A stretch of 28,518 bases of DNA from a virus. Below, one piece after another: positions 8,915 to 13,049 of the stretch. Below the pieces are notes generated by a model that worked only from the letters and a program-made list of their open reading frames with translations, did not search any database and was not told the origin of the DNA. Position 1 is the stretch's first letter. Each line of letters opens with the position of its first letter. The stretch is from IMG/VR virus record IMGVR_UViG_3300027734_000250, positions 1 to 28,518 of that record; one strand, given 5' to 3'. Position numbers and translations under genes: made by a program.

Positions 8915-9081
8915 TTGGGACACTCACCTACGGCCCGAGAAAACTCAGGCGGTGGAACCATAAAGAACTCAACACACAGCCCATCCGTGCCATAGTGCTC
9001 GCATGTATGACAGCATCTAGGGGGGCCAGTTTTGGCCCACTCGCGGTACAGGGTAACAATCTCGGGTTCAGGGTGTCTCAT
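8890..9081 (-). CDS. Small cysteine-rich (zinc-ribbon-like) protein, 63 aa
   Basis: 63 aa from ATG 9081, which overlaps the helicase stop as TAATG and has AAGGAG 9 nt upstream; an in-frame TTG at 9090 abuts that site and is less likely. Cysteines occur as 'RCCHTCEHYGTDGLCVEFF' and later 'GECPKWEQE', giving CxxC, C and C ligands for one zinc. The 'CxxCxxYGxxGxCxxFxxxPPxxF...CPxWE' layout recurs in small phage proteins encoded near replication genes. The role is unknown; nucleic-acid or protein docking is plausible. Confidence 0.65.
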   Translation of the reverse strand: MRHPEPEIVTLYREWAKTGPPRCCHTCEHYGTDGLCVEFFMVPPPEFSRAVGECPKWEQEVPF

Positions 9082-10676
9082 TAATTCCAACTCCTTTTAA
9101 GTACAGTAAAAAACTTTCCACTTTTTTTGTATTCAATGGCGTTTGGCGGCTGGCCTTCGGTTAGCTGCTGCGCCATATCGTGAAGGTCGGTGGCTCTGTA
9201 GTCCAGTGCCACTTGTGCTTTGTATGCAATATCAGACAGTAGGCGGCGAGACTTTTCCCCGGCATAACCATCGTGAGTCACTGCCAGATACTCGGTCACT
9301 GGTGGGTCACTCAAACCCCCGTAATAACTTAACGCTAACATCTCTTTGCCTGATGCTCTGCTGATGTGCTTGCGCCACGTCCACGCGGTAACGTCTAAAT
9401 CAATGCCTTCAATTCCCATTATGTCAAGGGTTGAAAGTTTCAAGGCTGGCTTTACTGGCTCGGGAAACTCAACGCCGCAGGCTGGGCAGACCCGTACCGA
9501 CAGGGCACATATTTCCTGGCAGTGGTTGCAAACCTTAACCGGCGCTTCACCTACCTTGTCGCCCTTTTTGGGTGGTGGCCTGACTGCTGTAATCGGGCCA
9601 TGCTGCTCAACTACACCAGCAAAATCCAGCACCAAGCAATCGGTTTTGCCCTCGGCAATGCGAAGCCCACGGCCTCCTTGCTGGAGATAAATTCCTGGGC
9701 TGCACGTTGGCCTAGCCATTACAAGCAAGTCAATTTCTCCATGGTCAAAGCCAGTGCTTAAACAATTGACATTTGTAACCGCCTTGATTTTTCCTGATTT
9801 AAAGTCTGCAATAGCTTTTTCTCGTTCAGTTTTTGGCATGTCACCAGTCACGGCAATGGCGGGTATTCCTTTTTGGTTCAACAAATCGGCAATGTGTTGA
9901 GCATGTACCACGCCAGTACAAAAAACCATCCAGCATTTTCTATCTGATGCCTTTTCAATAACTTCATTGACCATTCGCTCGTTGTTGTCCTTGGTGTCAA
10001 CAACCTTTTGCAGTTCGCTTTCAATGTATTCGCCGCCACGTTTTTTTACCCCATCGGTGCTAATTTTAAATTTTGGCAGTTTGCTGCGAAGTGGTGACAA
10101 AAAACCCTTATGCACCAACTCTTCAATGCTGACAGGCTCAATTAATGCATCAAAAATGGCGGGCTTGTCGGTAATGTATCCGTGGCCCATCCTAAAAGGC
10201 GAGGCTGTATAACCTATGACGCGCATGTTAGGATTTGTCTCCAGTAGTTTGCTAATAATTTTTCGATAGCTGCCTTCGTCTTTGTGAGAAATGTCGTGGC
10301 ATTCGTCGCAAATCAGCAAATCTATGTGACCAATTTGATCTAGTGTATTAATAATTGACAATGGCCCCGCAATGGTTATAGGCTCACCTAATTCTTTTCT
10401 GCCCACGCTGGCGCTGTAAATTCCAACGGGCGCATTGGGCCAAATTGCCCTCAATTTTGCGTAATTTTGCTCAATCAATTCTTTGCTTCTTGTAAGCATA
10501 AGAATTTTTGTTTCCGGCCATTCAGTTACGGCTTGTCTGCACAATTCAGCAATGACTACACTTTTACCGCTACCAGTAGGCAATGACACGCATGGATTTC
10601 CTGAGTTTTCCTCCATCCATTCATAAAGCATTGTTAGGCTTCTGGTTTGATATTCTCTAAGTTGCATTTGTGACAA
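9081..10676 (-). CDS. SF2 DEAD/DEAH-type helicase with C-terminal zinc ribbon
   Basis: 531 aa. The Q-like motif 'LREYQTRSL' (6-14) is followed by Walker A LPTGSGKS (32-39), DECH box (124-127), 'GYTASPF' (motif III-like, 155-161), motif V 'NCLSTGFDHGEIDLLVMA' and motif VI 'LQQGGRGLRI' (331-340). A CxxC...CxxC zinc ribbon (C383, C386, C397, C400) and a ~120-residue extension follow. It resembles phage ResIII/UvsW-like helicases that remodel forks and recombination intermediates. The start is TTG 10676 with AGAGG 6 nt upstream; ATG 10667 lies 15 nt from that site. The first ~14 codons overlap the end of the HNH gene in another frame. Confidence 0.9.
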   Translation of the reverse strand: MSQMQLREYQTRSLTMLYEWMEENSGNPCVSLPTGSGKSVVIAELCRQAVTEWPETKILMLTRSKELIEQNYAKLRAIWPNAPVGIYSASVGRKELGEPITIAGPLSIINTLDQIGHIDLLICDECHDISHKDEGSYRKIISKLLETNPNMRVIGYTASPFRMGHGYITDKPAIFDALIEPVSIEELVHKGFLSPLRSKLPKFKISTDGVKKRGGEYIESELQKVVDTKDNNERMVNEVIEKASDRKCWMVFCTGVVHAQHIADLLNQKGIPAIAVTGDMPKTEREKAIADFKSGKIKAVTNVNCLSTGFDHGEIDLLVMARPTCSPGIYLQQGGRGLRIAEGKTDCLVLDFAGVVEQHGPITAVRPPPKKGDKVGEAPVKVCNHCQEICALSVRVCPACGVEFPEPVKPALKLSTLDIMGIEGIDLDVTAWTWRKHISRASGKEMLALSYYGGLSDPPVTEYLAVTHDGYAGEKSRRLLSDIAYKAQVALDYRATDLHDMAQQLTEGQPPNAIEYKKSGKFFTVLKRSWN

Positions 10677-11338
10677 GATTCACCTCTTTTAATTCTATTA
10701 ACTGTTGATCTGGTTACGCCATAAATTTGAGCAAGTTCAGGCCCACTTTTGGCTGACGTTTTGATTTCATTGGCTTGTTGGTCAGTAATTTTTGCCCTAC
10801 CATTTTTTTCGCCAACGTAATGGCGTCCTTTTTTTAAAGCATCTTGTGCGTTATCTTTTACTGTCCCGACAAATAGATGCTCTGGATTAACGCATCCGGG
10901 GTTATCGCATTTATGGCAAACAACCATTTCATCTGGTATTGGCCCACAATGAAATTCAAAAGAAAATCTGTGTGCTCTAGTGTTTTTTAAATCACCCGGC
11001 AAAACCCCATAGCCATCTTTATCTGTATGTGATCGCCATTGCCAGCATCCATTTTCGGTTTTAACAAAACGACTAAAAAATCTTTCTTCAATAGTTCCAG
11101 ATTGTTTTAGGCGCATGACTCTCATTGCTGTTGAGTTAACCTCAGACTTTAAACAGCCACAAGATTTGCTATGGCCGCAACGAATGGTTGTTCCATACAC
11201 CACGCGATGAGTTCCGCACTCACACACACAATTCCAAAAATTACCTGATTGTTTAGCGCCATCCGGCTTTTCAGCCTTAGACGTTACAGTCCAACGGTAA
11301 AATTTTTGCCCAGTCATATCAATAGATGGCTTGCCCAT
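10634..11338 (-). CDS. HNH homing endonuclease
   Basis: 234 aa in three parts. Residues 7-63 form a cysteine-bearing DNA-binding-type domain ('DMTGQKFYRWTV', 'CVCECG', 'SCGCLKSE'). Residues 83-165 are an HNH_3 core ('GCWQWRSHTDKDGYG', 'RAHRFSFEFHCGPIP', 'CHKCDNPGCVNPEHLFVGT'), with the catalytic His in the AHR or CHK region and zinc-binding cysteines. Residues 180-220 hold a helix-turn-helix ('ELAQIYGVTRSTVNRIKRGE'). This is the usual make-up of free-standing phage homing nucleases, which cut cognate alleles and spread by repair. It interrupts the replication operon, its 3' end runs into the helicase coding region, and its ribosome-binding site lies in a hairpin. Confidence 0.9.
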   Translation of the reverse strand: MGKPSIDMTGQKFYRWTVTSKAEKPDGAKQSGNFWNCVCECGTHRVVYGTTIRCGHSKSCGCLKSEVNSTAMRVMRLKQSGTIEERFFSRFVKTENGCWQWRSHTDKDGYGVLPGDLKNTRAHRFSFEFHCGPIPDEMVVCHKCDNPGCVNPEHLFVGTVKDNAQDALKKGRHYVGEKNGRAKITDQQANEIKTSAKSGPELAQIYGVTRSTVNRIKRGESCHKCNLENIKPEA

Positions 11339-11343
11339 AATAT

Positions 11344-11370
11344 AAACATCCTTACTTCGTGAGAATGTTT
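11344..11370 (-). promoter_or_regulatory. RBS-sequestering hairpin upstream of the HNH gene
   Basis: On the coding strand, AAACATTCTCAC (11370-11359) can pair with GTAAGGATGTTT (11355-11344) around a GAA loop: ten Watson-Crick pairs, one G-U and one A-C mismatch. The 3' arm contains AAGGA (11353-11349), the Shine-Dalgarno 10 nt before ATG 11338, so the stem would block ribosome binding on read-through transcripts. Confidence 0.6.
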
Positions 11371-11372
11371 AC

Positions 11373-11378
11373 ATTATA
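11373..11378 (-). promoter_or_regulatory. Candidate internal promoter (-10) for the HNH gene
   Basis: The minus strand reads TATAAT here, a perfect -10 hexamer, within an A/T-rich 40-bp gap. No good -35 is found 16-18 bp upstream. Transcription would begin near 11366, inside the 5' arm of the sequestering hairpin, giving a transcript that lacks the outer part of that arm. Confidence 0.45.
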
Positions 11379-11380
11379 CA

Positions 11381-11845
11381 TCATCCAGCATGGATAGCCT
11401 CCCACTTAAATTTTGCTTGACCTACAACCTCTTGCCATTCACGACCTGGCCTTGTCTGCCATCCAGCGGCACTGTTGCCGGGTAGTTCGGCTATTACTTT
11501 CCAGCCAGCACCTTTAAGGCTAGCCCCCGATTCGCTTTGCAAAGTGTAGGTAATGCAGCGATTCCAGCCCAGCGCCTTGGCCGCATTCCAGCAACGGGCG
11601 TAAAGAAACGAGCAAGAACCCTTTGGTGCGTCATCCAGCACACAGCAGCGCACCACTTCAACTGTTTGTCCATCATCCATGTGGCGGCTTACAGGTCTGC
11701 CAACAATTGCAACGCCTACGCAATTTAGTCCATTTGATACACCAACGGCAAATAATCCGCCGTGAGGCGGCTTATTGTGGCGGTGAAAATTACGGACAAA
11801 CTCAGCCGCCTCTTTTAATTTCATAGGTATTGCGACAAGTTTCAT
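11381..11845 (-). CDS. XF1762-family protein (GNAT-like)
   Basis: 154 aa. 'IPMKLKEAAEFVRNFHRHN' (6-24), 'PPHGGLFAVGV' , 'CVGVAIVGRPVSR', 'EVVRCCVLDDAPKGSCSFLY' and 'TLQSESGASLKGAGWKVI' match a phage and prophage family I know as XF1762, which has the layout of a GNAT acyltransferase: a central beta strand with VGRPVSR, the SCSFLYARCW helix and an ESGASLKGAGW loop. The substrate is unknown; many phages carry it near replication genes. The ATG overlaps the stop of the 49-aa zinc-finger gene (ATGA), so the two are co-translated. Confidence 0.75.
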   Translation of the reverse strand: MKLVAIPMKLKEAAEFVRNFHRHNKPPHGGLFAVGVSNGLNCVGVAIVGRPVSRHMDDGQTVEVVRCCVLDDAPKGSCSFLYARCWNAAKALGWNRCITYTLQSESGASLKGAGWKVIAELPGNSAAGWQTRPGREWQEVVGQAKFKWEAIHAG

Positions 11846-13018: not shown

Positions 13019-13049
13019 GACCCCGCCGTTACAAGCGGGGTCTTTTTTT
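13019..13049 (+). terminator. Plus-oriented intrinsic terminator inside a minus-strand operon
   Basis: GACCCCGC (13019-13026) and GCGGGGTC (13035-13042) form an 8-bp GC-rich stem with an 8-nt loop, followed by T7 (13043-13049) on the plus strand. In the direction of the flanking genes (minus) the stem is preceded by A7 and has no T-run after it, so it should not end the replication transcript efficiently. It would stop antisense transcription or act as an mRNA stabiliser or processing site between the DUF669-type and Cas4-like genes. Confidence 0.7.

Follow-up and report, generated by a model that had tools for sequence, protein, structure and literature searches.

Homing endonucleases of T4 and related phages provide the closest described examples of a nuclease gene held under a combined transcriptional and RNA-structural control. 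For T4 I-TevI, a hairpin is joined to a late promoter: the hairpin hides the Shine-Dalgarno sequence on early and middle RNA, whereas late transcripts, which start inside the structure, escape it. Similar arrangements have been described for I-TevII, I-TevIII, T4 segB and mobE of Aeromonas phage Aeh1 (PMC2988022), and a second account agrees on Aeh1 mobE and, by implication, on segB (PMC3014915). I-TevI also represses its own late promoter (PMC2988022). In T4 genes e and soc, as at the locus described below, the Shine-Dalgarno sequence and/or the AUG lies in a helix on the long early RNA, and gene e is translated much more efficiently from transcripts that lack it; unlike the present gene, e and soc are not mobile endonucleases (PMC3014915).

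The leader of a free-standing HNH endonuclease gene in a 28.5-kb virus contig (the window, meaning the whole stretch of 28,518 nucleotides analyzed) is, in its sequence layout, a real new case of this known kind, one in which the hairpin is optional. It resembles Aeh1 mobE, which is likewise a free-standing HNH gene whose Shine-Dalgarno sequence is sequestered by a hairpin and freed through a late-promoter arrangement (PMC2988022, PMC3014915). However, mobE belongs to the nrd locus of a T4-type phage, whereas the window derives from a small phage encoding a Cas4-like exonuclease and a helicase; its −10 box lacks other known late-promoter features, and the stem is present in some relatives but not in others. 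T4 segB shares the free-standing endonuclease and a similar arrangement of promoter and RNA structure, but encodes a GIY-YIG enzyme in the tRNA region (PMC2988022). I-TevI, whose hairpin and internal late start have predicted counterparts here, is intron-encoded and its expression and start sites have been mapped, whereas start and fold at the present locus are predicted from sequence. A sequence-only reading of the window had presented the I-TevI logic at an unrelated free-standing HNH gene as new; this premise fails, since Aeh1 mobE, a free-standing HNH gene, and T4 segB already show the layout (PMC2988022). The contribution of the present locus is an example from beyond the T4-type phages, together with a set of relatives that allows box and stem to be compared and in which the box persists where the stem does not.

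The genes are ordered on the minus strand as Cas4-like exonuclease, Mom-like gene, HNH gene and helicase gene. The HNH gene (10634..11338, minus strand) matches Pfam HNH_3 (E=2.9e-13) and PHROGs HNH/endonuclease families, and encodes a 234-aa protein with a Cys-rich N-terminal part, an HNH_3 domain whose Cys/His/Asn motif positions are invariant in HNH alignments, and an HTH-like C-terminal end. Upstream lies the gene for a Mom-like DNA modification protein (11381..11845, minus strand; PHROG 1384, E=8.2e-34), and downstream a DEAD/ResIII-type helicase gene (9081..10676, minus strand), the target neighborhood of the cassette, whose start overlaps the end of the HNH gene. The Mom stop and the HNH start are separated by 42 bases, which contain TATAAT and an inverted repeat. 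Elsewhere in the window, a strong terminator-like stem followed by seven T is present on the plus strand at 13019-13042, adjoining the start of the exonuclease gene.

In the minus-strand RNA, AAACATTCTCAC (11370-11359) pairs with GTAAGGATGTTT (11355-11344) around a GAA loop (11358-11356), with one C.A mismatch. This is the stem that the sequence-only reading had proposed to bury the AAGGA Shine-Dalgarno sequence (11349..11353, minus strand), and it is longer than claimed: the predicted fold spans 11378-11336 and has 19 pairs, 17 outer and two inner. The 5' arm (11359..11378, minus strand) overlaps with its outer part the −10 box and its spacer, while the 3' arm (11336..11355, minus strand) contains the Shine-Dalgarno sequence and the start codon, and the hairpin thus encloses TATAAT itself, AAGGA and the AUG. 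Folding of 49 nt gave −15.8 kcal/mol, where shuffles averaged −5.7, and four in 10,000 dinucleotide shuffles did as well; in an 81-nt context the z score was −2.87, with two of 200 shuffles as good. RNA starting at 11366 retained a residual weak helix of −4.1 kcal/mol. In the long read-through RNA the Shine-Dalgarno sequence is predicted to be paired (unpaired probability 0.01), and the probability rises to 0.44 in the short RNA. The observation made in the sequence-only reading thus stands, and its interpretation is partly supported. The earlier expectation that RNA from the internal promoter is translatable is in line with this predicted opening of the Shine-Dalgarno sequence, but a small helix persists in the short RNA and the AUG is still predicted to be paired, so that “translatable” applies only in a relative sense. 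An exact search of viral contigs with the 29-nt hairpin, in which its own or a very near genome was possibly outside the search, returned no match, nor did an Rfam search with the hairpin. An intrinsic terminator was considered and rejected, as the 3' arm lacks a T run and a terminator scan gave no call there.

The reading that we favor, with belief and doubt about evenly balanced, is that of a portable HNH homing-endonuclease cassette with a −10-type promoter box whose hairpin, where present, silences read-through RNA in the manner of T4 I-TevI. The cassette would bring its own start signals, namely TAYAAT, a 6-nt spacer, an A at +1 and a Shine-Dalgarno sequence, to which the window phage and roughly half of its relatives would add a hairpin over the Shine-Dalgarno sequence. 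Transcripts that read through from the operon would include both arms, and HNH translation from them should therefore be low. RNA begun at 11366 would lack the outer 5' arm, which lies between the −10 box and +1, and its Shine-Dalgarno sequence should therefore be more open. We infer a working promoter, a timed use of it and a lowering of translation by the hairpin. If true, the control logic of T4-type homing endonucleases, known from a handful of examples, would extend to small uncultured phages, and at least 16 leaders in which the box is fixed and the RNA lock comes and goes would form a natural series in which the value of the lock to nuclease or phage could be examined.

The TATAAT box (11373..11378, minus strand) stands at the base of the stem, and the seventh base after it, an A at 11366 (minus strand), is the predicted transcription start, in agreement with the position within the 5' arm proposed in the sequence-only reading. 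TATAAT is avoided elsewhere: it occurs once in the window, both strands counted, against 8.7 occurrences expected, and six times in eight related contigs, where the reversed word occurs 29 times; two of these six are the leaders themselves. The rarity of TACAATG, which is unique in several related contigs, was dropped as a candidate signal when the reversed control proved equally rare. The proposal of an internal promoter gains support from the −10 and +1 positions, conserved in 16 of 16 leaders, but is weakened by the lack of a −35 element and of a consistent extended −10. No −35 hexamer was found 15-19 nt upstream of the box, the best window match being 2/6 and the mean best match across leaders 2.3/6, below the shuffle mean of 2.9; TG precedes the box in only four of 18 leaders; and a promoter consensus scan did not call a site at TATAAT. 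The T4 late promoter element is TATAAATA; it is absent at the box, where the window sequence reads TATAATGT. Among HNH leaders outside the family, TAYAAT lies within 60 nt of the start in eight of 108, slightly above the shuffle expectation of 3.8.

For comparison, viral and genome contigs were scanned for relatives, giving 16 distinct leaders including that of the window, with close HNH relatives at 97 to 64% identity, plus several remote ones. All 16 share a common layout, with small changes: TAYAAT, at about −40, followed by 6 nt, A (+1), TTCTCAC, about 3 nt, GTAAGGA, about 10 nt and ATG. Across these leaders, mean column identity is 0.93 at the −10 box and 1.0 at +1, against 0.52-0.55 in the outer arms and a mean of 0.45 at 4-fold degenerate sites (0.31-0.44 for the window against all but its two nearest relatives). 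Synonymous sites are thus nearly saturated, yet TAYAAT, the 6-nt spacer and the A at +1 are kept in 16 of 16. Since the outer arms vary approximately as 4-fold sites do while the −10 box and +1 are near-invariant, the promoter-like box is the best-kept part of the leader, which suggests that it is under selection.

The stem is far more variable. It is strong in six leaders (the window, L002, L055, L056, L058 and L064), weak in four (L003, L046, L053 and L133) and lost in six (L013, L050, L051, L052, L063 and L065), and the HNH genes of the weak and stemless leaders are open. The sequence-only reading had named relatives with a destroyed stem and unchanged HNH expression as evidence against the lock, and the sequence half of that situation is found in these six of 16. 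The many open forks in the protein tree mean that stem gains and losses can be counted only with low confidence. This variable retention says that the lock, as read from the leaders, would be helpful or tolerated and not essential. It also lends weight to a reading in which there is only a promoter: TAYAAT would drive the HNH gene and the overlapping helicase gene, and the stem would be a by-product of AT-rich flanks, neutral in most members. This reading, which we consider rather doubtful, would account for the near-invariant box and +1 beside outer arms varying at about the 4-fold-site rate and for the absence of the stem from six of 16 leaders, and it fits the position of the helicase start inside the HNH end, as T4 cassettes carry promoters for downstream genes (PMC2988022).

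Against a promoter alone stands the pairing of the arms. Six members that keep the stem carry compensatory changes in its outer part, the 5' arm of which falls between the −10 box and +1, and the retained stems differ in their bases, as in AATGTAAACAT/ATGTTTATATT of the window and AATGCAAATAT/ATATTTGCATT of L064. Pairing of each leader's own arms beats that of swapped arms, with p=0.0025 for the full set and 0.014, 0.056 and 0.12 as related rows are removed; relatedness among the leaders inflates the covariation and pairing statistics. In the alignment, 81.1% of cells are paired, against 77.3% in shuffles (two of 500 as high) and 33-45% in slid structures; there are 15 doubly changed cells (six of 500 shuffles as high), and the covariation score is 0.140 against 0.099 (four of 500). 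The excess over swapped arms and slid controls and the scarcity of shuffles matching the window stem both argue against a neutral by-product, and the covariation expected among homologues was found in part, as compensatory outer-stem changes, but with the stem lost in six of 16. The predicted opening of the Shine-Dalgarno sequence from long to short RNA is likewise seen in other leaders, with unpaired probability rising from 0.03 to 0.64 in L064, from 0.22 to 0.78 in L058 and from 0.00 to 0.54 in the remote L067.

The recurrence of the hairpin at unrelated sequence also stands against the promoter-only reading. The remote HNH genes L067 (about 50% identity; z −3.4) and L072 (z −3.2) have hairpins unrelated in sequence with the same geometry: the Shine-Dalgarno sequence is in the 3' arm, TAYAAT is at the 5' arm or in the loop, and a start at the predicted position would drop pairing bases. 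A z score of −2 or lower with a hidden Shine-Dalgarno sequence was found in 13 of 123 HNH leaders, a set in which family members are included and add to the excess, against 11 of 365 control genes. The nearest phage records gave partial HNH matches only; the exception was Vibrio phage 1.191.O (56%), and in its leader a strong stem is absent (z +0.35, 91 nt). Another remote HNH gene, in L185 (start 2255), has a very stable leader hairpin of −32.6 kcal/mol covering the Shine-Dalgarno sequence and AUG.

Translational coupling offers a second account of a hidden Shine-Dalgarno sequence. Here the hairpin would limit fresh initiation, and ribosomes finishing the upstream frame at its foot would open it, so that HNH yield would track the upstream gene. 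The Mom-like gene does stop 2 nt before the stem base; the remnant upstream frame in L064 crosses the whole 5' arm and stops at a TAA before the Shine-Dalgarno sequence, and the truncated upstream frame in L046 ends within the 5' arm. Among members, however, the upstream stop varies in distance and frame. With a ribosome at the Mom stop the inner stem would persist, and RNA beginning at 11370 still has a fold of −10.7 kcal/mol. Coupling also leaves the invariant −10 and +1 unexplained, and we regard it as unlikely. The inverted repeat could instead act as DNA, as an operator over the −10 box and +1 bound by the HTH-like C-terminal end of the HNH protein or by a host regulator. In favor of this are the overlap of the repeat with the promoter, the operators that lie over the I-TevI promoter and, putatively, over those of I-TevII and I-TevIII (PMC2988022), and the palindrome that another HNH subfamily carries centered on a −10-like box. 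The kept stems, however, use G.U pairs (GU in four members at one pair), which are mismatches in a DNA palindrome, and the sequence of the repeat varies between members; we hold an operator to be quite improbable. A chance hairpin, invited by the many gene starts in the window open to inspection and by the modest z score of the 81-nt fold, is very improbable in view of the shuffle, swap and comparative tests, with the compensatory changes and the hairpins of L067 and L072 weakening it further.

The favored reading of a portable cassette is further supported by the borders of the homology. Window DNA matches L017, which bears the Mom-like gene and lacks the HNH gene, up to 11387, and matches L002 and L003, which bear the HNH gene and lack the Mom-like gene, from 11386 and 11390, respectively. 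The break between Mom-side and HNH-side homology places the left cassette junction at 11386..11390 (minus strand), about 8 nt upstream of TATAAT, and the leader therefore moves with the gene; indeed, the cassette retains its leader beside differing left neighbors. Occupied and empty versions of one site are both found: in L015 the exonuclease gene overlaps the helicase gene with no insert, and in L017-L019 the Mom-like gene directly precedes the helicase gene with no HNH gene. In L051, L053, L055-L062 and L128, a remnant of a helicase 5' end precedes the HNH leader and a helicase gene with an intact start of its own lies beyond the HNH gene, an arrangement expected if a break inside the recipient helicase gene had been repaired.

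The same slot holds a gene for a GIY-YIG endonuclease with a NUMOD-like end in L008 (1-930) and, in L010 (2382-3020), an Endonuclease_7 gene before the helicase gene. The L008 leader aligns to that of the window with a score of 31, against a best of 26 in 1000 shuffles, a match that is a single case in a contig that begins there; it suggests that the two leaders were shared or exchanged. Tentatively, the leader, with its −10-type box and hidden Shine-Dalgarno sequence, might then be a portable control module that has stayed with, or moved between, homing endonucleases that are not homologous, the HNH family and the L008 GIY-YIG enzyme, at one pre-helicase hot spot, a view that we hold to be possible and not probable.

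A second HNH subfamily (L014, L073, L076, L080, L081, L159, L172, L175, L192 and L198) carries, upstream of its HNH genes, a GTGTC-type palindrome centered on an ATAMAATGGA box directly 5' of an AAGGAG-type Shine-Dalgarno sequence, as exemplified in L175 by ATATAATGGA. One member, L014, is located in the slot that the HNH gene fills in the window, ahead of a helicase gene of the same kind.
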